DNA of 64,000 nucleotides from Paenibacillus sp. JNUCC-31 (GTDB taxonomy: Bacteria; Bacillota; Bacilli; Paenibacillales; Paenibacillaceae): NCBI RefSeq assembly GCF_014844075.1, contig NZ_CP062165.1, forward strand, positions 5,208,001-5,272,000, written 5' to 3'. The translations under genes and the position numbers were made by a program. The notes beneath the pieces were generated by a model, which was not told where the DNA came from, ran no database searches, and saw nothing but the letters and a program-made list of their open reading frames with translations. Shown here in pieces: positions 13,283 through 64,000 of this stretch. The number at the start of each line of letters is the position of its first letter. The stretch's first letter is position 1.

Positions 13283-14680
13283 ATGAATACCTTTTTAATC
13301 ATTTTGAATGTCGTGGTTATGCTCGCTCTTCTGGGTGTCCTGTTCTGGATGCAGAAGAAGCATGTTTCCTTTACGAAGCGTGTATTTGCGGGGCTGGGCA
13401 TTGGAGTCGTATATGGCGTCATTCTGCAACTGATTTACACATCTGATTCTGACATTATCACCAAGTCGGTCGATTGGTTTAATCTGGCTGGTTCAGGATA
13501 TGTTCGTTTGTTACAAATGGTCGTGATTCCATTGATTATGGTTTCCATCATTTCGGCCATCATGAATTTGAAGGGCAAGCAGAATCTTGGCAAAATGAGC
13601 CTTTCGATCATCGCCATCCTGCTCATCACGACGGCGATTGCCGCAAGCGTGAGCATTGTGACGAGCTTGAGCTTCAACCTGACTTCCATTGAGATTGAGG
13701 GTGGAGACAGAGAGCTTGCACAGGGGCAGAAGATGGAGGAACGTCTCGTTGACGTGAAGGATCAGACGATTCCACAGCAAGTACTGGAGTTCATTCCGTC
13801 GAATCCGTTCGCGGATATGACCGGAGAACGTCGTACATCCACGCTGGCTGTTGTTATTTTCTCGGCCTTTATCGGAGTAGCGGTACTGGGACTGGATCGC
13901 AAAAAACCACAGCAGGCGGAAACGTTCCGCGGCATGGTTAATGCGGTATATGCGGTGGTTATGCGGATTGTAACACTGGTGCTAAGGCTGACCCCTTACG
14001 GGATTCTGGCACTGATTACGAAGGTAACCGCAACAACGAACCCAGATGAGATTCTGAAGCTGATCAAATTCGTCATTGCTTCCTACGTGGCGTTGATCGT
14101 CATGTTCATCATCCACCTGATTATTATCTCACTGTTTGGCTTCAATCCTATTACGTATGTGAAAAAGGTTCTGCCCACGCTGATATTTGCCTTCACATCC
14201 CGTTCAAGTGCGGCAGCGATTCCGCTTAACGTGGAGACACAAACGAAGAGACTGGGCGTATCGGACGGGATTGCGAACCTGTCGGCAAGTTTCGGGGCTA
14301 CCATTGGTCAAAACGGCTGCGCCGGGATCTATCCGGCCATGCTGGCGGTCATGATTGCTCCTACGGTTGGGATCGACCCGATGAGCTGGGACTTCATCAT
14401 TACCCTGATCCTGGTGGTCGTGATCAGTTCATTCGGCGTAGCCGGTGTAGGCGGCGGGGCAACCTTCGCTTCCCTGATCGTGTTGTCTACGATGAACCTG
14501 CCGGTTGCTTTGGCAGGCTTGCTGATCTCGGTTGAACCACTCATCGACATGGGCCGTACGGCGCTGAACGTGAACGATTCGATGACCGCAGGTCTCGTAT
14601 CCAGCAAAATTTTGAAAGAAAACGATCAGGATACATTCAATGATCAAAGTCGTGATCTGGATTCCGCCGTTCAGGCGTAA
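13283..14680 (+). CDS. tcyP: L-cystine uptake symporter TcyP
   Basis: Sodium/proton-coupled carrier of the dicarboxylate/amino acid:cation symporter (DAACS) family; 465 residues, close to B. subtilis TcyP. The N-terminal WMQKKHVSFTKRVFAGLGIG matches the TcyP pattern as I recall it. The substrate core shows AFTSRSSAAAIPLNVE (hairpin serine motif), FGATIGQNGCAGIYPAM and the C-terminal LINMG-type segment PLIDMGRTALNVNDS. AGGAGG at 13267 precedes the ATG. It is monocistronic, with a strong terminator. Cystine is the likely substrate from overall similarity. Confidence 0.88.
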   Translation: MNTFLIILNVVVMLALLGVLFWMQKKHVSFTKRVFAGLGIGVVYGVILQLIYTSDSDIITKSVDWFNLAGSGYVRLLQMVVIPLIMVSIISAIMNLKGKQNLGKMSLSIIAILLITTAIAASVSIVTSLSFNLTSIEIEGGDRELAQGQKMEERLVDVKDQTIPQQVLEFIPSNPFADMTGERRTSTLAVVIFSAFIGVAVLGLDRKKPQQAETFRGMVNAVYAVVMRIVTLVLRLTPYGILALITKVTATTNPDEILKLIKFVIASYVALIVMFIIHLIIISLFGFNPITYVKKVLPTLIFAFTSRSSAAAIPLNVETQTKRLGVSDGIANLSASFGATIGQNGCAGIYPAMLAVMIAPTVGIDPMSWDFIITLILVVVISSFGVAGVGGGATFASLIVLSTMNLPVALAGLLISVEPLIDMGRTALNVNDSMTAGLVSSKILKENDQDTFNDQSRDLDSAVQA

Positions 14681-14746
14681 TGGATTCGGACTCACTTTTC
14701 ACCTCTGACATGCAGGTGGGTGTGTAATTACCATAAGCTTAATCAG

Positions 14747-14780
14747 CCGTCCTTCGGGTTAACCCGGAGGGCGGTTTTTT
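14747..14780 (+). terminator. Intrinsic terminator of tcyP
   Basis: CCGTCCTTCGGGTT pairs with AACCCGGAGGGCGG, followed directly by TTTTTT. Confidence 0.92.
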
Positions 14781-14865
14781 GCAATCAAGAGCAAGCTGGA
14801 GTTATTTAGTGCTGTTCAACCGTAGTGAAATGTGATAGAGTATTCATGTTTTGGCCCGGAGCCAA

Positions 14866-14908
14866 ACCGCGGTTCGTAACCATCCCGCGTAATCAAAACT
14901 AGGAAGGC
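14866..14908 (+). promoter_or_regulatory. preQ1-I riboswitch, translational type
   Basis: The stem strand CCGCGG (14867-14872) leads into TTCGTAACCATC, the pairing strand CCCGCG (14884-14889), then the A-rich tail CAAAACTAGGAAGG (14894-14907). This is the compact H-type pseudoknot pattern of class I preQ1 riboswitches. The tail ACTAGGAAGG includes the ribosome-binding site of the following queuosine-precursor transporter, so ligand would block translation. Confidence 0.85.
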
Positions 14909-14920
14909 AGTGTATGATTT

Positions 14921-15604
14921 GTGTTTAATTTAGGATGGGGAGCGCTTTTTGTTCTCGTAACGTATGGCTTTTTTCTGTTGTGTTACCGCTTGTTCGGTAA
15001 AAAGGGTCTGTATGCCTGGATCGGTGTGGCAACAGTCATTGCCAACATTCAGGTGACCAAAACGATAGATATTATGGGGATCGTTCTGACGCTGGGCAAT
15101 ACGATGTATGTCAGCATGTACCTGACCAGTGATCTGCTCAATGAGAAATATGGACCAGGTGAGGCACGTAAAGCTGTATGGTTCGGGTTCTTCACATTGA
15201 TTATGACGACAGTACTTATGCAGATGGTGTTGTTCTTTGAGCCCGCATCGACGGACTTTGCACAGGATTCAATGAAAACCCTGTTTGGTCTGCTGCCACG
15301 TCTGGCACTCGGAAGTCTGTCGGCCTATTTCATCAGTCAGTTCCTGGATGTGCGACTGTACAGCTGGCTGCGCAAGGTGGCGCCAGGGCGCAATCAGTTG
15401 TGGATACGTACCAACGGCAGCTCGATTATCAGTTCGTTTGTGGATACACTGGTATTCTGCACAATCGCTTTTGCGTTCATCTATCCATGGGATGTCTGGC
15501 TTGAAATTTTCCTGACGACGTACGTGATCAAATTTGTATTGACCGCGGTAGGAACGCCGTTTCTATATGCTGCACGAAGCTTTAAATTCAAGGATGAAGC
15601 CTAG
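14921..15604 (+). CDS. yhhQ: Queuosine precursor transporter (YhhQ/YpdP family, COG1738)
   Basis: Membrane protein of 227 residues with about six helices. It shows the family's early segment VATVIANIQVTKTIDIMG, then TLGNTMYVSMYLTSDLLNEKYG with the conserved acidic/aromatic patch, and a C-terminal SSFVDTLVFCTIAF. The GTG start follows AGGAAGG, which lies inside a preQ1-I riboswitch; an ATG at 14914 leads to a stop after four codons. The riboswitch supports a queuosine-precursor substrate (preQ0 or preQ1) independently of homology. Confidence 0.92.
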   Translation: MFNLGWGALFVLVTYGFFLLCYRLFGKKGLYAWIGVATVIANIQVTKTIDIMGIVLTLGNTMYVSMYLTSDLLNEKYGPGEARKAVWFGFFTLIMTTVLMQMVLFFEPASTDFAQDSMKTLFGLLPRLALGSLSAYFISQFLDVRLYSWLRKVAPGRNQLWIRTNGSSIISSFVDTLVFCTIAFAFIYPWDVWLEIFLTTYVIKFVLTAVGTPFLYAARSFKFKDEA

Positions 15605-20929: not shown

Positions 20930-22906
20930 TCAGGCTTTGGCCTTCACGGCCTGCTGAATCAGCTCGATAAATGCTTCTATGCGCTGAATGCCTTGATCGC
21001 CCTGACCGTATGCACGGACAGAGGCGGAAGAGGCATTTTTCTCATTTTCCCCGAGTACGAGCGAGTAAGGTATCTTTTCCATCTGAGCTTCACGGATTTT
21101 GTAGCCGAGCTTCTCACTGCGCAAGTCTGTTTCTACCCGAATGCCGGCAGCCCGCAGCTGGCTTTGAACTTGAAGCGCATAGTCTGCGTAATGATCTGAC
21201 ACCGGCAGCAGCTTCACTTGGACTGGTGCGAGCCAGAGTGGAAACGCACCGGCGTAATGCTCAGTCAGAATGCCGATGAAACGATCGATCGAACCATAGA
21301 TGGCACGATGGATCACGACTGGACGGTGTTTCAGGCTATCCTCGCCAATATAAGTGAGATCGAACTTCTCGGGCATTTGAAAATCGAGCTGAATTGTTCC
21401 GCACTGCCAGCTGCGCTTCAGTGCATCAAGAATGTGAAAGTCGATTTTCGGACCGTAAAAGGCACCGTCACCCTCGTTAATGCGGTATTTCACACCGCGA
21501 CGATCAAGTACATTTTGCAGTGCTCTTTCTGCCTGATCCCACAGCTCTTCCGATCCCATGGAATCATCCGGGCGAGTGGACAGTTCAATTTTGTACTCGA
21601 ATCCAAAGATGTCGTACATGCGTCCAATCAATGAGATCGCCTGATTGATCTCATCCTCAATCTGTTCTGGCATCACATAGAGATGCGCATCATCCTGGCA
21701 GAAAGTCCGTACCCGCATCATGCCGTTCAGGGCTCCAGAGAATTCATGGCGATGGACCTGGCCAAATTCCATCATACGAATCGGCAGCTCACGATAGGAA
21801 TGGAGTTTATTTTTGAAAATCAGCATGTGTCCTGGACAGTTCATTGGTTTCAGGGCAAAAGTCGCATCGTCCACTTCCGAGAAATACATATTGTCCTTGT
21901 AATGTTCCCAGTGACCGGATTGCTCCCACAGACGGTTGTTCATCATGAGGGGAGTCCGAACTTCCTGATAGCCTTCCTGTAACTGCAACTCACGGGAGAA
22001 TTGCTCCAGTTCTGTACGGACAGTCATGCCTTTGGGCAGATAGAAGGGCATGCCGGGTGCTTCTTCGGAGAACATGAACAGTTCAAGTTCTTTGCCCAGT
22101 TTGCGGTGATCCCGTTTCTTCGCTTCTTCGAGCATGTGCAGATGTTCATCCAATTGGGATTTACTCGGGAAAGCAGTGCCGTAGATGCGTTGCAGCATTT
22201 TATTATCCGAGTTGCCGCGCCAGTATGCACCAGCCACATTCAGCAGTTTGAATGCCTTGATCCGACCAGTGGACGGAAGATGAGGGCCGCGACAGAGATC
22301 GAAAAACTCCCCTTGGTCATAGATCGAAAGCTCAGCGTCCTCTGGTAAATCCTGAATGAGTTCAAGCTTATACGGGTCCTGAATCTCTCCAAAGATACGA
22401 AGTGCTTCTTCCCGGCTAACTACCCGGCGGCTAATTTTCTCATTTTCTTTTATGATTTTGTTCATTTCTTGCTCAATGGCAGCCAAATCACTGATTGATA
22501 GAGCATGTTCCAGATCTACATCGTAATAGAAACCATCTTCAATGACAGGTCCGATGCCCAGTTTCACTTGTTCTGCACCGTAGATGCGTTTGAGCGCCTG
22601 TGCCAGTATATGAGCAGCGCTGTGTCGGTAACGATAAAGGCCTTCCGCGCTGTCCAGTGTAACGATGACGAGTTCGCAATCTTGCTCAAGCTCACATTCG
22701 AGATCGACATTCTTACCATTTACAATACCGCCAATGGCCTGTTTGCCCAGACTAGTGCTGATGGATGAGGCGACCGCTCCTACAGTGATGCCTGCGTTGT
22801 AAGAACGTACAGCTCCGCCTTGCAGGCGAATTTCAATCGGATGCCCGGGTTGCTGTTGGTCATTCGATTGGTTGCTGAATTGGCTGTTATTATTCGGATT
22901 ACTCAT
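20930..22906 (-). CDS. thrS: Threonine--tRNA ligase
   Basis: Class II aminoacyl-tRNA synthetase of 658 residues that charges tRNA-Thr. Domains in order: N-terminal TGS domain, the second editing domain with HSAAHILAQALK and CRGPHLPSTG, the catalytic core with MNCPGHMLIFKNKL and RVRTFCQDDAHLY, motif 3 RPVVIHRAIYGSIDRFIG, and the C-terminal anticodon-binding domain. The ATG at 22906 has GGAGAG eight bases upstream; a longer reading would enter the T-box leader. The N-terminus has an Asn/Gln-rich extension of about 20 residues before the TGS domain. Confidence 0.97.
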   Translation of the reverse strand: MSNPNNNSQFSNQSNDQQQPGHPIEIRLQGGAVRSYNAGITVGAVASSISTSLGKQAIGGIVNGKNVDLECELEQDCELVIVTLDSAEGLYRYRHSAAHILAQALKRIYGAEQVKLGIGPVIEDGFYYDVDLEHALSISDLAAIEQEMNKIIKENEKISRRVVSREEALRIFGEIQDPYKLELIQDLPEDAELSIYDQGEFFDLCRGPHLPSTGRIKAFKLLNVAGAYWRGNSDNKMLQRIYGTAFPSKSQLDEHLHMLEEAKKRDHRKLGKELELFMFSEEAPGMPFYLPKGMTVRTELEQFSRELQLQEGYQEVRTPLMMNNRLWEQSGHWEHYKDNMYFSEVDDATFALKPMNCPGHMLIFKNKLHSYRELPIRMMEFGQVHRHEFSGALNGMMRVRTFCQDDAHLYVMPEQIEDEINQAISLIGRMYDIFGFEYKIELSTRPDDSMGSEELWDQAERALQNVLDRRGVKYRINEGDGAFYGPKIDFHILDALKRSWQCGTIQLDFQMPEKFDLTYIGEDSLKHRPVVIHRAIYGSIDRFIGILTEHYAGAFPLWLAPVQVKLLPVSDHYADYALQVQSQLRAAGIRVETDLRSEKLGYKIREAQMEKIPYSLVLGENEKNASSASVRAYGQGDQGIQRIEAFIELIQQAVKAKA

Positions 22907-22937
22907 GTGAACCACTCTCCAATATTGAAATTTGAAG

Positions 22938-23300
22938 CGCAAAAAACACCCGTCCCGGAAAAGGGACGAGTGCGCTCAGCTCGTGGTTCCACCCTAATTT
23001 GGTTATGAATGCTCCTGAACACGACCAGCCGCCGCAAGCAAGAAACATCATAACCCTCATTGGAATCCGTTATCGGGGATCAGGCGGTGAACTCTACTGA
23101 CAACTTTCCGGAATTCAGAAAGAAGACCGAAAAACTGAGGTTCGAGCTCACGGCTGCAGAGGGGTAATTCCGGTTCGTTCGCTGAAGAAGGTTTCACCAA
23201 TCCCTTCTCTCTCTGGGCAGCACGCAAACGGAATCTTGTCTCTGGTCATCGCCAAATATGCAAAATCGATATCTAATGAATTGATCTGAATATCGTTCAA
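22938..23300 (-). promoter_or_regulatory. T-box leader controlling thrS
   Basis: On the minus strand the T-box AGGGTGGAACCACG (plus 22982-22995) is followed by a terminator hairpin, CGTCCCTTTTCCGGGACG with a T-run (22938-22973). Upstream lies a Stem I region with the loop GGTGAAACC and a candidate threonine specifier ACC (plus 23163-23165) in a GAATTACCCC context. Uncharged tRNA-Thr would favour the antiterminator. The 5' boundary is approximate. Confidence 0.93.
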
Positions 23301-23380
23301 GTCCATATCAATATATGGGAACAGGTGTTATTGAGTGTCGATTATATAGATTGAAAATGAAAAGGTCAAGCGGAATGTTT

Positions 23381-25141
23381 TTACCCATGTTCTGATTGCC
23401 CATCCCATATTAATCGAATGACGGTCCCCTCACCAGAAGTGGATTGTACTTCAATCCGACCCTTCATCGCTTCAATTAAGCCTTTCGTAACCGCCATTCC
23501 AAGGCCTGATCCAACATCGGATGTGCCTGTATCCGTCCCTCGATAATATCGTTCAAACAGCCTCCAGACCAGTTCCGGGTCCATTCCTTGACCGTCATCG
23601 GCAAAATGAACACTGAACTCCCCAGCCTGTTTACCCGGATGCACACTAACGGTCAGAGTCGACTCCGCTGGATTATGCAGAAGGGCATTAGCGGTCAGAT
23701 TATCCACAATGCGTTCAAACGAAGGAATATGTACATGGCCGTATACCGGAATTTTCGCAGGTCGGAACACGATACGCCCCTCGCCATATACCGGGTTGCG
23801 TTCTGCACGCTGGACGAGATCATGCAGCAGCGTATTTACGTCAGTTTCTTCAACAGGTGGCTGGTATCCACCGCTTCGCAATCGGTACGTCATGGCAAGG
23901 TCATTCACAAGCCGGTCCATATACATGGATTTGTCCAGCATAATGCCCGCGAATTCTCGTACTTCTTCCGGTGACCAGCTGTATTTCTGTGCTTCAAGCA
24001 TATGGGCGTATCCCTGGATGGAGGACAGCGGTGTCTTAAGGTCATGCGTTATACCGGCAATCCATTCCTCGCGCAGTGACTCGGTCTTTTTACGGAGCTC
24101 TTCGTCTTGTTTCAATGTTGCGGATAATGCCTGCATGGAGCGAAGCACTTCGGCATACACGTGGTATTTCCGTTTCCATTTGCCATTTCGTCGCTGGCTG
24201 CGAGGTGCGCCTCCAATGCCTTTGGGTTCTTCATAATGTCCCTGTTCCAGGCGCTGGAGCCATTGGAGCATATGAAGCATGGGAGAACCGAAACGATTGG
24301 CATACCATAGGGCCAGAAGGATAAGCAAAATGACAACGGACAGAAGCAGCACGAGTAGAGCGGGTGCCAAAATGAATTTATATGGATTCTGATCTCCTGA
24401 CGCAGATGGGTCTACAGGTATGCTAATCATCCAGGTTGTGCTGTTCTGTTCATCGTACAAGGTTGCGGTCGATATTCCATACCGACTGGGATAACGAACA
24501 CGCAAAACCATTTCCTGAATGTTATAGCTGCTGGGGACGCCTATGGTGGGTTTGTTAAAGGAATCCAGTTCATGGCCGTAAGCGTCCAACACTTGCAGGT
24601 AGGCGCCTTTGGAGCGAAGGGCATCCTGTTGTTTGGGCTGAAGAACAAGCTCACCATTCGTGTAATAACTGCTTTGTCGGGCTTGATCAAGCAAGGATTG
24701 GGCCTGATTGCGCTCGCCGTACAGCAAGGTAAAATTCTCGCCGTTTTTCTCCCGAATCAGCATGATGATCTGATAGGGGAACGGCTTTTTGGCTTCCCAG
24801 TATGCAATCAACTCTCCAGGCTTATATTGCTTCGGAACATCGTCGGGGGTATGGAAATCGTCAATGACATAGCCCTTCTCATCCAGAACCTGCAACCATC
24901 CCTGATTATGTTTAACCTGCTCCAGCAGCTTGGGGTCATATTGGACCGTGCCATCGGGCTTCATCTCTGCAGTATTGATTAATTGGTCCAGTCCGCTTGT
25001 AGCGAAGTCATCCACCAGACTTACTTCATTTATCCTTTGAACGACCCAGTAGGTGGCTGCAGAACCCAACAGGATGATTAGGATTACTGCGCCAGCGAGC
25101 ATCCCGATAAACCGGGTCATCAATCTGCGACGAATACTCAT
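23381..25141 (-). CDS. Sensor histidine kinase with large extracytoplasmic domain
   Basis: 586 residues: membrane helix 1 (about 11-36), extracytoplasmic region to about 255, helix 2 (about 256-282), linker, and HisKA domain with phospho-acceptor His366 in GITHDLKTPL. The HATPase domain has FADDGQGMDPE (N/G1) and GSGLGMAVTKGLIEA (G2). The sensor region seems to hold two related copies: WLQVLDEKGYVIDDF near residue 82 and YLQVLDAYGHELDSF near residue 181, each followed by a Pro/Tyr-rich stretch. It overlaps its response regulator by four bases. Confidence 0.93.
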   Translation of the reverse strand: MSIRRRLMTRFIGMLAGAVILIILLGSAATYWVVQRINEVSLVDDFATSGLDQLINTAEMKPDGTVQYDPKLLEQVKHNQGWLQVLDEKGYVIDDFHTPDDVPKQYKPGELIAYWEAKKPFPYQIIMLIREKNGENFTLLYGERNQAQSLLDQARQSSYYTNGELVLQPKQQDALRSKGAYLQVLDAYGHELDSFNKPTIGVPSSYNIQEMVLRVRYPSRYGISTATLYDEQNSTTWMISIPVDPSASGDQNPYKFILAPALLVLLLSVVILLILLALWYANRFGSPMLHMLQWLQRLEQGHYEEPKGIGGAPRSQRRNGKWKRKYHVYAEVLRSMQALSATLKQDEELRKKTESLREEWIAGITHDLKTPLSSIQGYAHMLEAQKYSWSPEEVREFAGIMLDKSMYMDRLVNDLAMTYRLRSGGYQPPVEETDVNTLLHDLVQRAERNPVYGEGRIVFRPAKIPVYGHVHIPSFERIVDNLTANALLHNPAESTLTVSVHPGKQAGEFSVHFADDGQGMDPELVWRLFERYYRGTDTGTSDVGSGLGMAVTKGLIEAMKGRIEVQSTSGEGTVIRLIWDGQSEHG

Positions 25142-56577: not shown

Positions 56578-56698
56578 TAAGAAGTAAGTAGCGGGTTGTA
56601 CCTTTGCATTGTGTGTGGAATGCCCCTGAATGATGGACGTGGACATTGACATTGACATGGATCGTTCGTCTCTCTGTGGTGGACAAAAGGGGCTACGT

Positions 56699-56857
56699 TG
56701 TCTTTCAAAAGGTGGACATTGGCGGTGGAAATGGTGAGCAGTTACGGATACTGCATGTAGTTTGACGACGTGCAATTTATGCTACATGTAGTGATTTGGG
56801 TGCGGCGGGGAATATATGTCTTTTTGAAAGGTGTGTCCACTCTTTGAAAGACAAAAG
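56699..56857. repeat. Three related motifs in the recQ/radical SAM intergenic region
   Basis: The 488 bases 56578-57065 hold no credible ORF. TTGTCTTTCAAA with TGGACA (56699-56718) recurs inverted as GTCCAC...TTTGAAAGACAA (56835-56855) and again directly as TGTCTTTTTGAAAGGTG with GTCCAC (56817-56840). CTGCATGTAG and CTACATGTAG (about 56751-56791) add another near-inverted pair. Its function is unknown; it may be remnant or regulatory. Confidence 0.55.
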
Positions 56858-59102: not shown

Positions 59103-59261
59103 GTGCAGCGGCATTGGGGAGCTGCATGGCCGATGGCTGCATGCAGCGGGGGAAGCACCATGGCTTTGCCGTTCTGGTGCTACAACGGTGAGCACCGCGG
59201 TTATGGACGCGGTGCAATCCCGTGAGGTGCTGCCCGATTGGGCGCAGCACCTTACCCTTAC

Positions 59262-59300
59262 GCGGCTTGCCACTTCACAAGCCGCGCTCCGTTTTACTTT
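59262..59300 (+). terminator. Terminator-like hairpin after the radical SAM gene
   Basis: GCGGCTTG (59262-59269) pairs with CAAGCCGC (59278-59285), followed by T-rich sequence. A further hairpin, GGTGCTGC/GCAGCACC (about 59226-59251), lies just before. Confidence 0.65.
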
Positions 59301-59328
59301 TTACAAAATCATATGTTCCGAAAGTATC

Positions 59329-59382
59329 GGAAGGTCATCTGATTCCCTAGTGGATGAAGAAGGGCCTTCCTTTTTTGTTTTT
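59329..59382 (+). terminator. Intrinsic terminator before the recombinase remnant
   Basis: GGAAGG (59329-59334) pairs with CCTTCC (59365-59370) with an intervening GTC/GGC extension, then TTTTTTGTTTTT. Confidence 0.7.
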
Positions 59383-59431
59383 CCGAATTTGGGTCAAAAA
59401 CATAACCTATCCAAACGAAGGAGAGTTTCCT

Positions 59432-60615
59432 ATGAATAAATATGCTACTACTGAAAAGGCGATTACCATAACTAAAGGTTCCACTGAGTTACTGCGCATT
59501 CATATCCCATATAACCCTTGAGCGGATTCGTCGGATTAATGGCAGAACGTGGGAATCCAAACAAAAAGTGTGGATCATCCCATACACCATAGCTGCTCTT
59601 CAGGAGTTCATGAATCAATTTGATCCTGATGACGTTCTGATTACCCCAGAGTTGTGGGTTGAAAATGAGAATTTACAGCAACGGAAAGCTAGTAAGGCAA
59701 ACCATCCATGGAGCAAAGAGCCGTTACAGAAGGCATTAAAGTGACGAGGATACAGCCAGCCGCAAAACGATTAAAGCATATTGTAATCAGGTCGAACGTT
59801 TTCTGAGTAGCTTTCCCCTTAAAGATACCGATGTGACTACTTCCAATGTTCAAATGTATTGTTTAGGTTTGCTTGAGCGAGGGATCTCCCATTCAAGCGT
59901 GAATCAGACGATTAGCGCGCTTCGCTTCTATTGCAAACATGTACTCCATCACCCCACTGAGATCCAGTTTATTCGTCCCAAGAAGCAGACCAAGCTTCCG
60001 CAAGTATTGTCGGAAAAGGAAGTCGCTCAATTGCTCAAATCCGTAACCAACCCTAAACATAAGGCCATATTGTTTCTAACCTATTCTTCTGGCCTTCGTG
60101 TAAGTGAAGTTGTGCGTTTGCGGTGCAGCGATCTTGATATTGAAAGGCAAACACTCATCGTGAGACAGGGGAAGGGGCAAAAGGATCGGAGAACGATCCT
60201 ATCGAGTCTAGCGTGGGATATGGTGCAGAAATACGTCACTGAATATAGACCGACTCGTTGGCTCTTTCCAGAGCAATCTTCTGATCGGCATCTTACGGAG
60301 CGGAGTGTGCAGAAGGTTTTTGAAGAAGCCAGACAACGTGCAGACATTGTGAAAAAGGTTAGTATTCATGTCTTGAGGCACTCTTTTGCTACTCATTTGT
60401 TGGAAAACGGAACAGACCTGCGCTACATTCAGGAGCTACTTGGTCATACGAGCGCACGCACAACACAGCGATATACGCATGAGTACGAAAAATATTCAGC
60501 GTATTCAGAGCCCGCTGGATCGTTTGGATTTGGGAGATTGAATGCTTCAATAAATCTCCCTTTTTCACCAAATTCTTCTTCGCAAATACTACACCATAGG
60601 TTATCATATACGTAG
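59432..60615 (+). pseudogene. Tyrosine recombinase (XerC/D- or IntI-like), disrupted N-terminus
   Basis: The reading begins at ATG 59432 (MNKYATTEK), preceded by GAAGGAGAG. Three lesions follow: a stop at 59519-59521 where the protein continues in another frame (LERIRRINGRTWESK), a stop at 59742-59744, and an apparent four-base CAGC duplication at 59753-59760 that shifts the frame. From 59761 the frame is open to 60615. The C-terminal catalytic domain is intact: Arg in SSGLRVSE, Lys in RQGKGQKDRR, HVLRH, LLGHTS and the Tyr nucleophile in TTQRYTHEY. Between WLFPEQ and HVLRH it is short and lacks the IntI-specific insertion. Probably inactive. Confidence 0.88.
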
Positions 60616-60659
60616 TTCACATATCATGCAGGATGTGTGGTATTTACGAAGTACATAAA

Positions 60660-60680
60660 TTAGATGTTATCAGAAATATC
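60660..60680 (+). other. attI-like core next to the recombinase
   Basis: GTTATCAGAAAT (60666-60677) matches the cassette cores GTTATAAGAAA (62304, 63196) apart from C for A. It lacks the full foldback partner seen in the other sites. It lies 51 bases after the recombinase stop and 76 bases before the first cassette ORF, the position expected for attI. Confidence 0.6.
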
Positions 60681-60741
60681 ACAAAGCTAATAAAAATTTA
60701 TCAAAACCAGTATATTCAAGACATTTCGGGGGTGTATAGAT

Positions 60742-61062
60742 ATGAAAATAAGTGCAACTGAGTATCTAGTTAAAGAACGTATACCTGCAAACTTATTTAG
60801 AGGTATAGAAGCAGTGGGTGGAAGGCTTAATATAACGAACGAGAGAATACTTTTCAACCCTCATAGTATCAATATTCAAAGAAAACCTCTTGAAATTATG
60901 ATTAAAGACATAAGTAAAATTGAAAAGCGAAACACATTAAAAATAGTTCCAAACGGAATAAAAATTACTATAAATAATGGTCAAGAGTATAAGTTCGTAG
61001 TGTATAAAAGATCTAAATTAATAGAGCTATTAAATGGATTCAGAACAACTAAAAGAAATTAG
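60742..61062 (+). CDS. Small GRAM/PH-like protein, first cassette ORF
   Basis: 106 residues. The pattern AVGGRLNITNERILFNPHSIN is that of GRAM/PH-like domains, in which a strand pair (GRLxxTxxRLxF) begins the barrel, and KIVPNGIKITINNGQEYKFVV with a C-terminal helix completes it. It may bind lipid or a membrane partner; function unknown. ATG 60742 has GGGGGTG upstream. The ORF fills the cassette between the core at 60666 and the attC-like element at 61106. AT-rich compared with the upstream genes. Confidence 0.75.
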   Translation: MKISATEYLVKERIPANLFRGIEAVGGRLNITNERILFNPHSINIQRKPLEIMIKDISKIEKRNTLKIVPNGIKITINNGQEYKFVVYKRSKLIELLNGFRTTKRN

Positions 61063-61105
61063 TAATATTTTGTTTTGAAGGCCTACTCGAAGAAGTGGAT
61101 ACATC

Positions 61106-61222
61106 TGATAACAACATATTCAAGCTGTGTCTCCTTCGGAGCCTTGGTCTGCGGGAAGGATTTCGGAGAAGGATTTCAGCAGACAACCCCTCCGGGGTTT
61201 CGTGAATACAGGAACGTTATAG
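61106..61222 (+). repeat. attC-like element 1
   Basis: R''-like GATAAC (61107-61112), L''-like TATTCAAG (61117-61124), a variable centre with GTCTGC/GCAGAC arms, L' CGTGAATA (61201-61208) and R' GTTATAG (61216-61222). The two L boxes pair with one mismatch. About 117 bp. The centre is GC-richer than the cassettes and reads through as a spurious ORF. Confidence 0.75.
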
Positions 61223-61288
61223 GAAATCAGCGCAAGAAATTAATTGATGAATTAACCTAAAGGGCAGTTATGCTTAGTGGAAATGAGC

Positions 61289-61328
61289 AAAAGCAGCCTA
61301 TCCTCTGACGAGGAACGGGCTGCTTTTT
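61289..61328. terminator. Bidirectional terminator inside cassette 2
   Basis: AAAAGCAGCC pairs with GGGCTGCTTTT. It can end transcription from cassette 1 and from the antisense exosporium-like gene downstream. Confidence 0.8.
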
Positions 61329-61430
61329 ACTCTTCTATCTTTTTTTCCATTTTGAAGTACCCATTCCCTCAAAATAGAGGTTTTTGCAGGGCTCTCTATT
61401 CAGGTGCGAAAAATTATTGCCAATACGGTA

Positions 61431-61856
61431 TTAGGTTCTCGTTTTAACGGCTAACCCACTAAACGATATCGGCCCAACAACATCGGCTCTTGTATTTGTA
61501 GTAAGATTTTCTGCTGTGACTGTGTAAACATGGGTACCAGCTATTACATTTCTATCTTCCGCCTGGAACGTAACAGCATAATTTTGTTCAGAGCCAGCAG
61601 ATTCGATACCTTGTTGTGTGTTGAAAATCTCTCTTCCATCGCGGAAGATTCTAAAGAGTATTTGTGCAATACCAGTGACACCTCGAACACCCACGGTTGC
61701 TACCAAATCTACCCGATTACGTTGAGAATTGACTGGAATCCGTATAGTGATTGTTGCAAGGCGAGATCTTGCTGGTGAACGACGGATAATAAATGAGTTT
61801 GCTAAGTTGAATCTACGGCGCGGCTGGACGGCAGCTTTATCGAGAATACGTACCAA
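61431..61856 (-). CDS. Exosporium-like protein, antisense to the array
   Basis: 141 residues from the TTG at 61856 (AAAGGAG eight bases upstream). The sequence starts LVRILDKAAVQPRRRFNLAN, then IRRSPARSRLATITIRIP, NRVDLVATVGVRGVTG and SEQNYAVTFQAED, ending ADVVGPISFSGLAV. This resembles Firmicutes proteins annotated as exosporium protein C, as I recall. Probably beta-rich and surface located on spores. It reads opposite to all other cassette genes, with the bidirectional terminator about 100 bases after its stop. Confidence 0.72.
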   Translation of the reverse strand: MVRILDKAAVQPRRRFNLANSFIIRRSPARSRLATITIRIPVNSQRNRVDLVATVGVRGVTGIAQILFRIFRDGREIFNTQQGIESAGSEQNYAVTFQAEDRNVIAGTHVYTVTAENLTTNTRADVVGPISFSGLAVKTRT

Positions 61857-62163
61857 AATATCAACTCCTTTTATTTGATATCTCCAAGATATGTTGAACA
61901 AAAAGAGAATGATTGGACAATTATGTAAGATGCTTTAATTTGATTCAAATAGATTATGAACAATGGTAAAGAGCATATTACAGGTGGTGGTGAATAAGGG
62001 ACGTACAAGAAATCCTAACCATTTAACGTATTTCATGACTGTAATGTTACTAACTAAATAATTGTTATCCACCAGGAGCGCCTCAGCGGACACGGAATGA
62101 GTTGCGTTAACGGGAAGCGATAGTTAAGAAACAATGATTTTGTATTTCGAAGGCGCTGGCATC
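61857..62163. other. Non-coding 3' part of cassette 2
   Basis: The 307 bases between the antisense gene and attC-like element 2 hold no supported ORF. GCGTTAACGGGAAGC and AGTTAAGAAAC near 62110-62131 recall the GTT...AGAAA core. They could be remnants of an older site, but no foldback partner was found. Confidence 0.35.
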
Positions 62164-62310
62164 CTATAACACAATATTCGCGCTGCGGGCCGTTGGCCCT
62201 TGATCTGCCAGGAGTTTTTTCGAAGAAGAGGAGACAGGCAGATACATCCATTCCCCTAAGATAGGAGCTATCTAAGGGAAATGGACGTCGCTAATACAAG
62301 AACGTTATAA
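62164..62310 (+). repeat. attC-like element 2
   Basis: R'' TATAAC (62165-62170), L'' TATTCGCG (62175-62182), L' CGCTAATA (62289-62296) and R' GTTATAA (62304-62310). The L boxes pair with one mismatch. The centre has ATCTGCC/GGCAGAT arms and a hairpin TTCCCCTAAGATAG/CTATCTAAGGGAA (about 62250-62280) shared with element 4. About 147 bp. Confidence 0.85.
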
Positions 62311-62368
62311 GAAACCGGTGCAATAATTATTTAATAATATATAAAACAATAAGAAATGAGGAAACCAT

Positions 62369-63001
62369 ATGAACAATCCCTTTAAAGAAATCTTGACTTC
62401 AGAAGATGACATTAGAGATCTCCTAGGTTATCCAAGTGAACTTGTAAAGAAGAAAGTAATAAAGTGTTTAGATATTCATTGTCGAAACTTCATTTCTTTG
62501 TCACCCTTATTATTTTTAGCTACATCGGATGAGCAAGGATTTTGCGATGTATCTCCACGAGGAGATGCACCTGGATCAGTGATAGTTATAGATGAGAAGC
62601 ATTTAGTTATTCCTGAAAGACCAGGTAACCGTAGAATTGATTCACTAAGAAATATATTATCGAACCCAAGAGTAGGTATTATATTTATCATTCCCGGGCT
62701 AGAAGAAACGCTGAGGATTAATGGACAAGCTTTTGTGATTAAAGATGAAAAAATTCTAGATCTTATGAAAGCTAAAGATAAAAAACCCACCTTAGGAATT
62801 GGAGTAAAAGTTGAAGAATGCTTTATTCATTGTGCAAAAGCATTTAAGCGGTCTGGGGTGTGGGAAAGCAAGTCTTGGCCAGAAGAGAATACTCTACCGT
62901 TAATTCCAACAATACTATCAGATCATGTAAATTCAACTGAATTTACAGTAGAAGTAATCAGGAAAGGACTACAAGAAAGTTACGAGAAGAGACTGTATTA
63001 A
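62369..63001 (+). CDS. PPOX-class FMN-binding flavoprotein (MSMEG_1061-like)
   Basis: 210 residues. Pyridoxamine 5'-phosphate oxidase-like split barrel: SPLLFLATSDEQGFCDVSPRG, LVIPERPGNRRIDSLRNIL, VGIIFIIPGLEETLRINGQA and an acidic C-terminal domain (about 130-205). Members bind FMN or F420; the natural substrate here is unknown. ATG 62369 has GAGGAAA upstream. The ORF occupies cassette 3, starting 65 bases after its core and followed closely by element 3. AT-rich. Confidence 0.85.
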   Translation: MNNPFKEILTSEDDIRDLLGYPSELVKKKVIKCLDIHCRNFISLSPLLFLATSDEQGFCDVSPRGDAPGSVIVIDEKHLVIPERPGNRRIDSLRNILSNPRVGIIFIIPGLEETLRINGQAFVIKDEKILDLMKAKDKKPTLGIGVKVEECFIHCAKAFKRSGVWESKSWPEENTLPLIPTILSDHVNSTEFTVEVIRKGLQESYEKRLY

Positions 63002-63039
63002 AGAATATTTGTTTGTAGTTTCAAAGAAGGCACGGGCAT

Positions 63040-63202
63040 CTTATAACATCGTATTCACGCTGCGGGTCTTTCGCCCCTTGGTTGCCCGAGGCATTTCGAG
63101 GAAGTAGAATCAGGTAGGCAACCCTACACTGGCAAATCCGTCGGACCTGGCAGCTACGCTACCTTAAGCCACTGAGGGTTCGTGAATACCAGAACGTTAT
63201 AA
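63040..63202 (+). repeat. attC-like element 3 (best conserved)
   Basis: R'' TTATAAC (63041-63047), L'' GTATTCACG (63051-63059), L' CGTGAATAC (63181-63189) and R' GTTATAA (63196-63202). Both box pairs are perfectly complementary, with unequal spacers of three and six bases. The centre has GGTTGCC/GGCAACC arms. About 163 bp. Confidence 0.88.
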
Positions 63203-63247
63203 GAAATTGGGAAAAGGATATAAAAACAACTCAAAGGAGTAATGTAC

Positions 63248-63724
63248 ATGGCGAAGACCTCTTTGGAAATGGTAGAAGAATTCAAAACCTTTATTGATTT
63301 TGTACGAGAGTTAAAGACTATAGATGAAGAACATTGGAATAGTCCCATTTCAGAAGGGAAATGGTCAATGAAAGATGTTATAAGTCATATCATGCTTTGG
63401 GACAAATATTTTTATGAGGAAGGCATAGAGAAGATCAAGCTTGGTCAGTTCGTGACTGTAAGGCATTTAGACTTTGATGAATTCAACGCTAATGCAAGGG
63501 AATATGCAAAGACTCAAACAAGAGATTCTATCGTTAACCAATTCGTTGAATACAGAAACAAGATCATTGATGATATCACCGGATTACCAGAGGAAGATTA
63601 TATAAAGGAATATAAAGACGGAGACAGAAAAAAGTTTTCGATTAGGGGATATTTAAGAGGATTTATTCCCCACGATAAACACCATAAAAAACAAATTGAA
63701 AAGTACGTAAAGTCAATACAATAA
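63248..63724 (+). CDS. DinB-like four-helix protein, cassette 4
   Basis: 158 residues from ATG 63248, with AAAGGAG eight bases upstream (an earlier ATG at 63242 is too close to the site). Helical segments: MVEEFKTFIDFVRELK, WSMKDVISHIMLWDKYFYEE and the C-terminal GFIPHDKHHKKQIEKYVKS with histidines typical of DinB/ClbS-like proteins. Possible thiol transferase or DNA-protection relative; unproven. It is unlike the DinB-family gene at 31365 in sequence. Followed by element 4. Confidence 0.78.
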   Translation: MAKTSLEMVEEFKTFIDFVRELKTIDEEHWNSPISEGKWSMKDVISHIMLWDKYFYEEGIEKIKLGQFVTVRHLDFDEFNANAREYAKTQTRDSIVNQFVEYRNKIIDDITGLPEEDYIKEYKDGDRKKFSIRGYLRGFIPHDKHHKKQIEKYVKSIQ

Positions 63725-63755
63725 AGTGTAAGCGAATTCAGGGATGCCCCAACAT

Positions 63756-63903
63756 CTTATAACACTATGTTCCAGCTTCACGTCTGTCGCTGCTCGGTCT
63801 GCCTGAAGGATTTCAAGGAAGCAGATTCAGGCAGACACATCAATTCCCCTAAGATAAGAGCTATCTAAGGGGAATCGACGTCAGGAACAAAACAACGTTA
63901 GAT
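63756..63903 (+). repeat. attC-like element 4
   Basis: R'' TTATAAC (63757-63763), L'' TGTTCC (63768-63773), L' GGAACA (63884-63889) and R' GTTAGAT (63897-63903), which fits the canonical integron core GTTRRRY. The centre has perfect GTCTGCCTGAA/TTCAGGCAGAC arms and the ATTCCCCTAAGATA hairpin shared with element 2. About 148 bp. Confidence 0.85.
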
Positions 63904-63952
63904 GAAATTACGATGCAAGTTCTTATCAAAATCAAAAACTATGAGGTGCATA

Positions 63953-64000
63953 ATGCCAAGACTAATTACATTGGCTGATGGAAGATCAGTAGAAGTTGAA
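63953..64000 (+). CDS. Partial ORF at the start of cassette 5
   Basis: ATG 63953 has GAGGTG just upstream. Sixteen codons are visible (MPRLITLADGRSVEVE) before the window ends. It begins 56 bases after the core of element 4, like the other cassette ORFs. Too short to identify. Confidence 0.5.
   Translation, partial: MPRLITLADGRSVEVE

Follow-up and report, generated by a model that had tools for sequence, protein, structure and literature searches.

The 64,000-nt window analysed here (positions 5,208,001–5,272,000 of the 7.55-Mb single-contig genome of Paenibacillus sp. JNUCC-31) contains what is very probably a chromosomal integron cassette array, in which a tyrosine recombinase other than the canonical integron integrase, IntI, would be the catalyst. 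On the + strand, a tyrosine-recombinase gene (59432–60538) is followed by an attI-like core (60666) and by a row of cassettes that continues past the window end. The original prediction, made from this DNA alone, had read the region as an integron-like array containing four foldback elements with integron-type boxes and cores. Both points are borne out: the sites are in tandem, GTT cores delimit the cassettes that different arrays have in common, and all four elements were found by two covariance models, one of them independent of the window. The first model (R1) was built from 35 elements, including three of the four window sites. Of the 25 elements behind the second (R2), 21 had sources other than Paenibacillus, one belonged to array 2 of the genome studied here and none was taken from the window. 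R1 detected four sites in the window, all on the + strand, and R2 (E ≤ 1) detected the same four and no others: site 1 (61105–61223, 119 bp; R1, 101.6 bits; R2, 40.6 bits, E = 2.6e-6), site 2 (62163–62311, 149 bp; 94.0 and 50.6 bits), site 3 (63040–63203, 164 bp; 103.7 and 49.6 bits) and site 4 (63756–63904, 149 bp; 73.7 bits; R2, 31.7 bits, E = 1.7e-4). The R'' boxes of sites 1 to 4 are CTGATAAC, CCTATAAC, CTTATAAC and CTTATAAC, each followed by TATTC or TGTTC, and the cores are located at 61216, 62304, 63196 and 63897. Tandem attC sites with R'', L'', L' and R' boxes and a GTT core, as integrons have, are thus present. Motif scans and covariance models were used instead of a strict ungapped palindrome scanner, which caught one of the four window sites, and a comparison of 11.5 kb of the array to Rfam gave nothing at E ≤ 0.1.

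The array had been predicted to extend beyond the window, and R1 sites were indeed found further on in the genome. Of 920 candidates from a first look across the whole genome, 150 were scored with R1, which gave 35 matches at E ≤ 1. All were on the + strand, and they were clustered at 5.269–5.279, 5.292–5.294, 5.318–5.326, 6.2996–6.309 and 6.323–6.330 Mb. This distribution bears on the reading of the elements as dispersed palindromes of the REP or MITE kind, with no part in gene exchange, an outcome that the original prediction had named as its own refutation. The elements are palindromes, as that reading expects. Against it stand their one-strand clusters, the complementarity of each site to its own cassette end and the cassette boundaries at the core (both described below), and we reject it on these three tests, leaving it a negligible probability. 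In a set of 179 sites from 26 loci, to which locus L087 contributed none, the sites were 62–244 bp long, with foldbacks in one orientation. Such lengths also argue against movement of the cassettes by the host recombinases XerC and XerD. These enzymes share related catalytic domains with the recombinase described here, and pdif modules on Acinetobacter plasmids are moved by them. Long one-orientation foldbacks are unlike short dif-like sites, and the attI motif sits behind the gene of a different recombinase family (see below), so that we consider the XerC/XerD explanation very improbable.

We take a cassette to be the unit that two successive GTT cores delimit. In the circular form, the leading end of a cassette would restore the R' box, the pairing partner of the R'' box of that cassette, and the leading bases of each cassette were accordingly compared with its R'' box. 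In all four complete cassettes of the window, the 8 bases that follow the core were the exact reverse complement of the own R'' box; the cassette at 62304–63195 adds no information here, since the leading end that comes next is the same. From the 179 sites, 114 consecutive Paenibacillaceae pairs were usable after removal of pairs more than 3 kb apart and pairs without GTT/AAC. At the three variable bases, the own leading end matched in 87 of 114 and that of the next cassette in 7 of 114; when only informative cassettes, with differing ends, were counted, the values were 82 and 2 of 109. Shuffling (10,000 times) gave a mean of 6.8 and a maximum of 18 own-end matches. Since the three variable R'' bases are unpaired in R1, the model is unable to create this signal. 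Outside Paenibacillus (sites at E ≤ 0.1), the own end matched in 19 of 28 informative cassettes, as compared to 0 of 28 for the neighbour. The leading end therefore belongs to the cassette's own attC, as in known integrons.

Cassettes common to different arrays or positions showed where the units end. When 127 cassettes were cut at their cores, 10 pairs shared more than 80% identity. Junctions were aligned for ten pairs, namely nine of these and one pair whose right-hand site had lost its core. At the left junctions, 29–30 of 30 bases were identical inside the core and 13–25 of 30 outside it, in a stretch that holds the conserved arm of the adjacent attC. At the right junctions, the last 20 inside bases agreed at 17–20 positions in seven pairs and at 4–8 in three, the latter showing length differences in the site or a lost core; past the right GTTA, similarity dropped in nine pairs and persisted in one, whose next sequence is also shared. 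In the remaining one of the 10 shared pairs (L034/L035), similarity sets in some twelve bases to the inner side of the left core. The cassettes are thus discrete units bounded at the core, with a sharp left edge in ten junctions and a sharp right edge in nine. Two cases involve the window itself: cassette 2 (61216–62303) is 99.1% identical to an array 2 cassette (L014, 10411–11500) that has other neighbours there, and the cassette starting at 63897 has three copies in the genome (L013, 4897; L014, 9689; L107, 6404).

The cassettes are of the one-gene type. An open reading frame (ORF) of at least 50 residues was present in 125 of the 127, on the attC strand in 103 of these, and the median distance from core to ORF start was 46 bases. 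In the window, cassette 1 (60666–61215) encodes a GRAM-domain protein (ORF 60742–61062); cassette 2 has a sole sizeable ORF on the − strand (61431–61901), with no match in Pfam or NCBIfam; cassette 3 (62304–63195) encodes an FMN-dependent flavoprotein of the PPOX type (ORF 62369–63001; TIGR04025, 244.9 bits against a cut-off of 170; PF01243); cassette 4 (63196–63896) encodes a DinB-superfamily protein (ORF 63242–63724; PF12867, E = 3.5e-9); and cassette 5, of which positions 63897–64000 lie in the window, encodes a 168-aa protein from 63953 onwards that has no Pfam match. The spacing of 52–76 bases between core and ORF, predicted for most ORFs, fits three of these starts (76, 65 and 56 bases for the ORFs at 60742, 62369 and 63953); the ORF at 63242 starts 46 bases after its core, and cassette 2 has its ORF on the opposite strand. 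Elsewhere in this genome, cassettes encode CAP, SnoaL-like and other small proteins in addition to GRAM, PPOX-flavoprotein and DinB types. Among the predicted products past the window are a beta-lactamase-family protein (PF00144) and a nucleotidyltransferase-domain protein (L013, 9101–10645 and 11531–12298). By eye, cassettes of array 2 are interrupted by two near-identical insertion-sequence copies (L014, about 13495–14330 and 14672–15507), and one interrupted cassette is also present in uninterrupted form (L014, 8969–9688).

The available part of PMC8946536 describes the bottom strand as the substrate in known integrons, and DNA folding of the present sites gave a modest preference in the same direction. 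Four of five sites folded better than shuffled sequences, forming either an L-box stem with hairpins inside it or a long stem. Sites 2 and 4, which together with site 1 represented the window in this set, were among these (site 2, −26.9 kcal/mol for the bottom and −21.5 for the top strand; site 4, −29.3 and −27.3 kcal/mol). Window site 1, whose top strand was slightly more stable, did not surpass its shuffled versions (z = −0.85 and −0.91). Over the 179 sites, the bottom strand was more stable in 119 and the top strand in 57 (mean difference, −1.02 kcal/mol; Wilcoxon, 1.9e-8), and pairing of the R'' and R' cores was part of the minimum-energy structure for 71 bottom as compared to 32 top strands.

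The core without a foldback partner that had been placed at the attI position (GTTA, 60666–60669) lies inside a motif conserved in relatives, and we regard 60601–60669 as the putative insertion site. A 24-base motif ending in GATGTTA, with up to 5 substitutions, was sought in the 26 loci and was present in 18, three of this genome and 15 of relatives; it was not found in the other 8, which are more distant or lack an integrase. In 17 of the 18 loci (15 relatives and two own loci) it stood behind the recombinase gene, and array 2 has the motif with no integrase ahead of it. For 12 of the 15 relatives, 104–106 bp separated the integrase stop codon from the start of the motif; at the remaining three loci (L028, L032 and L035), the reading frame in question terminates at another position. 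Mean pairwise identity (n = 18) was 79.7% over the 46 nt left of the core and 37.6% on the right side. As in known integrons, attI is therefore adjacent to an integrase gene.

The recombinase gene itself had been predicted immediately upstream of the array. It is present there, although it is frame-disrupted and does not encode a canonical IntI. A tblastn search with an intact relative (L039) placed it in different frames at 59432–59518, 59517–59759 (with a stop), 59758–60480 and 60479–60538, and the open C-terminal frame matched PF00589 (E = 6.7e-41). The genome has another copy near 5.3165 Mb, which precedes the third array and is split into three frame pieces. Because both copies are disrupted, the arrays of this genome may be silent; they may now be relics, or be moved only in trans. 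It is accordingly possible that the window array is a fossil, with a decayed integrase and cassettes immobile in this strain, a view that concerns present activity and not origin. Beyond the two integrase copies in three to four frames, it is favoured by the site at L013 5463–5618, which has lost its core. Against it, full-length stop-free integrases occur in 23 of 74 genomes of the genus, and shared cassettes inside this genome show 99.1% and 94.5% identity, values which imply that duplication or movement is not ancient. We take the fossil view seriously without favouring it.

Intact relatives of this recombinase have roughly 350–400 residues, arranged as an N-terminal, a SAM-like and a catalytic domain. 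Residues R227, K252, H317, R320, H343 and Y352 were invariant in 18 aligned rows, and we take these to be the catalytic residues (R, K, H-x-x-R, H, Y) of a tyrosine recombinase. The insert specific to IntI (about 40 residues, around patch III) is missing and appeared as a gap in the alignment to VchIntIA (PDB 2a3v). The spacing from GKGxKxR to HxLRH was 59 residues in the window, 58–62 in 111 measured of 120 relatives and 55–63 in 75 measured of 80 loci, as compared to 99–100 in 118 measured of 120 IntI-type proteins. The available text of PMC9668308 calls the added domain of IntI necessary for integron recombination. With TIGR02249 (cut-off, 265 bits), the window ORF scored 172 and four intact relatives 196.6–224.5, all below the cut-off, whereas the positive controls IntI1 and IntI2 scored 507.5 and 410.3. 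The best NCBIfam match of the window ORF (185.1 bits; the ORF is truncated) and of the four relatives was NF040815 (recomb_XerA_Arch; cut-off, 220), which three relatives exceeded (225.8, 240.3 and 221.3) and the fourth did not (202.3). Sequence comparison to the PDB placed the XerA-like 4a8e first (E = 5.9e-41) and 2a3v behind it (1.6e-35); Foldseek, run with a structure model of moderate quality (pLDDT, 78.8; pTM, 0.50), placed 2a3v first, ahead of XerA. In a quick tree, a branch divided IntI from the family (94 and 91), and in a more careful tree eight IntI sequences stood on one side (100/98), without the 40 family rows (72/92), so that the family did not group with IntI in a sample of IntI that is narrow and carries mostly gammaproteobacterial names. 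The rooting of these trees is unsettled, the Xer outgroups being on very long branches.

The extra N-terminal domain, which would occupy 59465–59680 in the window and span the frame disruption there, to judge from intact relatives, is tentatively HARP-like (HARP/UvsW-XPB DRD-like), on weak evidence. Searches with its fold returned unrelated chains at similar Z, and the fold alone therefore proves nothing. No paper on a HARP domain together with a tyrosine recombinase was found in the open-access literature.

An ordinary integron, in which a canonical IntI is encoded elsewhere and the neighbouring recombinase is incidental, would account for the classical anatomy of the array, and clusters of attC sites without a nearby IntI (CALINs) are described as common in the available part of PMC8618304. 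In the genus, however, no genome of 74, including that of JNUCC-31, encodes a protein above the TIGR02249 cut-off, which IntI1 and IntI2 pass, and the attI motif lies behind the gene of the present family in 15 relatives and two own loci. A canonical IntI elsewhere is therefore rejected for the genus at this cut-off, and the explanation as a whole appears very improbable, marginally more so than that by XerC/XerD.

In known integrons, the cut is made at G^TT. For the non-IntI integron that we favour, we propose an analogous mechanism: the tyrosine recombinase would cut at the core, presumably also at G^TT, and cassettes would exit in circular form and be inserted again, either at attI or at a different attC, with the bottom strand of the folded attC as the candidate substrate. 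The catalyst would be the family encoded just before attI, as its linkage suggests, and the HARP-like domain may help it to read the folded, single-stranded attC. Control by the SOS response was unsupported, because a LexA-like box (up to 2 mismatches) was found in one of 13 upstream regions, and a promoter scan of 59200–60800 was uninformative (4 matches, as compared to 3.3 in shuffled sequences).

Both sites and integrase are widespread in the genus. Sites at E ≤ 1e-4 were detected in 73 of the 74 Paenibacillus genomes (2–37 each) and in 24 of 249 genomes sampled from the class, 17 of the latter belonging to the window's own family; at E ≤ 1e-5, they were detected in 120 of 198 genomes sampled from the order, in 25 of 43 genera. 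The integrase was found at E ≤ 1e-60 in 49 of the 74 genus genomes, the 23 stop-free frames mentioned above being those that cover at least 340 of 364 positions. Around the integrase genes of 22 Paenibacillus loci, which come from named genomes (two from one strain) and many of which supplied R1 elements, 141 sites lay downstream and 4 upstream. Same-strand downstream sites were present at 21 of these loci, the first being 442–1205 bp behind the gene match; at the remaining locus the contig stops 509 bp after the gene.

Relatives with 49–56% identity occur near such sites in Alkaliphilus, Acididesulfobacillus and other Clostridia, in Dehalococcoidia, Atribacterota, Thermotogae and Nitrospirae, and in other metagenome-assembled genomes. 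An R2 site at E ≤ 0.001 was present at 17 of 62 loci of the recombinase family, 15 of these being among the 58 outside Paenibacillus; 11 of the 15 had been used to train R2, and L049, L062, L067 and L092 are independent of it. At the other loci there was no site or the contig ends soon after the gene; three archaeal contigs stop 45, 87 and 667 bases after it, and loci from Bacteroidota gave no site at E ≤ 0.1. On balance, we lean towards the view that a second lineage of integron integrases, separate from IntI and with a HARP-like domain in place of the insert, runs arrays in Paenibacillales, Clostridia, Dehalococcoidia and Atribacterota, and perhaps in archaea.

The arrays share with IntI chromosomal integrons (VchIntIA, IntI1, IntI2) tandem one-gene cassettes, R''-L''-L'-R' foldbacks, the GTT core, an attI beside the integrase, a leading end that belongs to the cassette's own site and a bottom strand that folds somewhat better. 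The Paenibacillus integrase differs in lacking the insert (59 as compared to 99–100 residues), in its extra N-terminal domain, in falling below the TIGR02249 cut-off and branching apart in trees, in being read towards the array and in the absence of a LexA-like box from 12 of 13 upstream regions. Transcription of the integrase towards the cassettes is shared with Treponema integrons, which are called intI systems in the available part of PMC3607928 and are set apart by that description. The recombinase and attI present here distinguish the arrays from CALINs, the class to which standard tools would probably assign them because no IntI is recognised. The NCBI name of NF040815, “site-specific tyrosine recombinase/integron integrase”, is used for some members of the family; it is assigned automatically, its model spans the SAM-like and catalytic parts and not the N-terminal domain, and we found no paper that ties the name to cassette arrays.

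Chromosomal integrons had been called essentially unreported in Firmicutes, and this roughly fits the literature: the available text on IntegronFinder 2.0 gives a single complete integron for the Firmicutes, in Limnochorda pilosa, besides a few CALINs. The occurrence of integrons in this phylum is therefore not in itself new, and a review, in the part available, lists the Firmicutes among integron-bearing phyla. By title and abstract, none of the open-access papers listed in our searches described the present Paenibacillus system, and a genus-wide integron that lacks IntI and carries this recombinase appears to be new. If the second lineage exists, many CALINs regarded as integrase-less would be complete integrons of this type. 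Should the recombinase beside the array prove to be the catalyst, folded attC sites could be recombined without the IntI-specific domain, the recognition of a DNA hairpin by a recombinase would be open to direct tests, and the failure of IntI-seeking tools to find these systems would be explained; soil Firmicutes would then be seen to possess a large platform for gene exchange, with an attC array on a Cohnella plasmid.

Several further loci were recorded. The plasmid of Cohnella herbarum (NZ_CP051681.1, L016) carries 24 R1 sites, at 6–21 kb and 155–170 kb, and three tandem tyrosine recombinases (21630–24423) beside a cluster end, with weak matches to the family (71–86 bits); it was the one record returned by a near-identity search in plasmids. 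At the Acididesulfobacillus locus L053 (11681–18188), sites are on both strands, in the manner of two arrays face to face, and at the Dehalococcoidia locus L048 (5121–10358), the integrase and five of the six sites are on opposite strands. A Chryseobacterium plasmid (L110, 5974–7017) encodes a full-length relative with 38.6% identity, labelled “site-specific tyrosine recombinase/integron integrase”. Ahead of the array, the window contains an inverted repeat of 21 nt whose arms are separated by 115 nt (56698–56854), located between recQ-like and radical-SAM-like genes, as named by eye.

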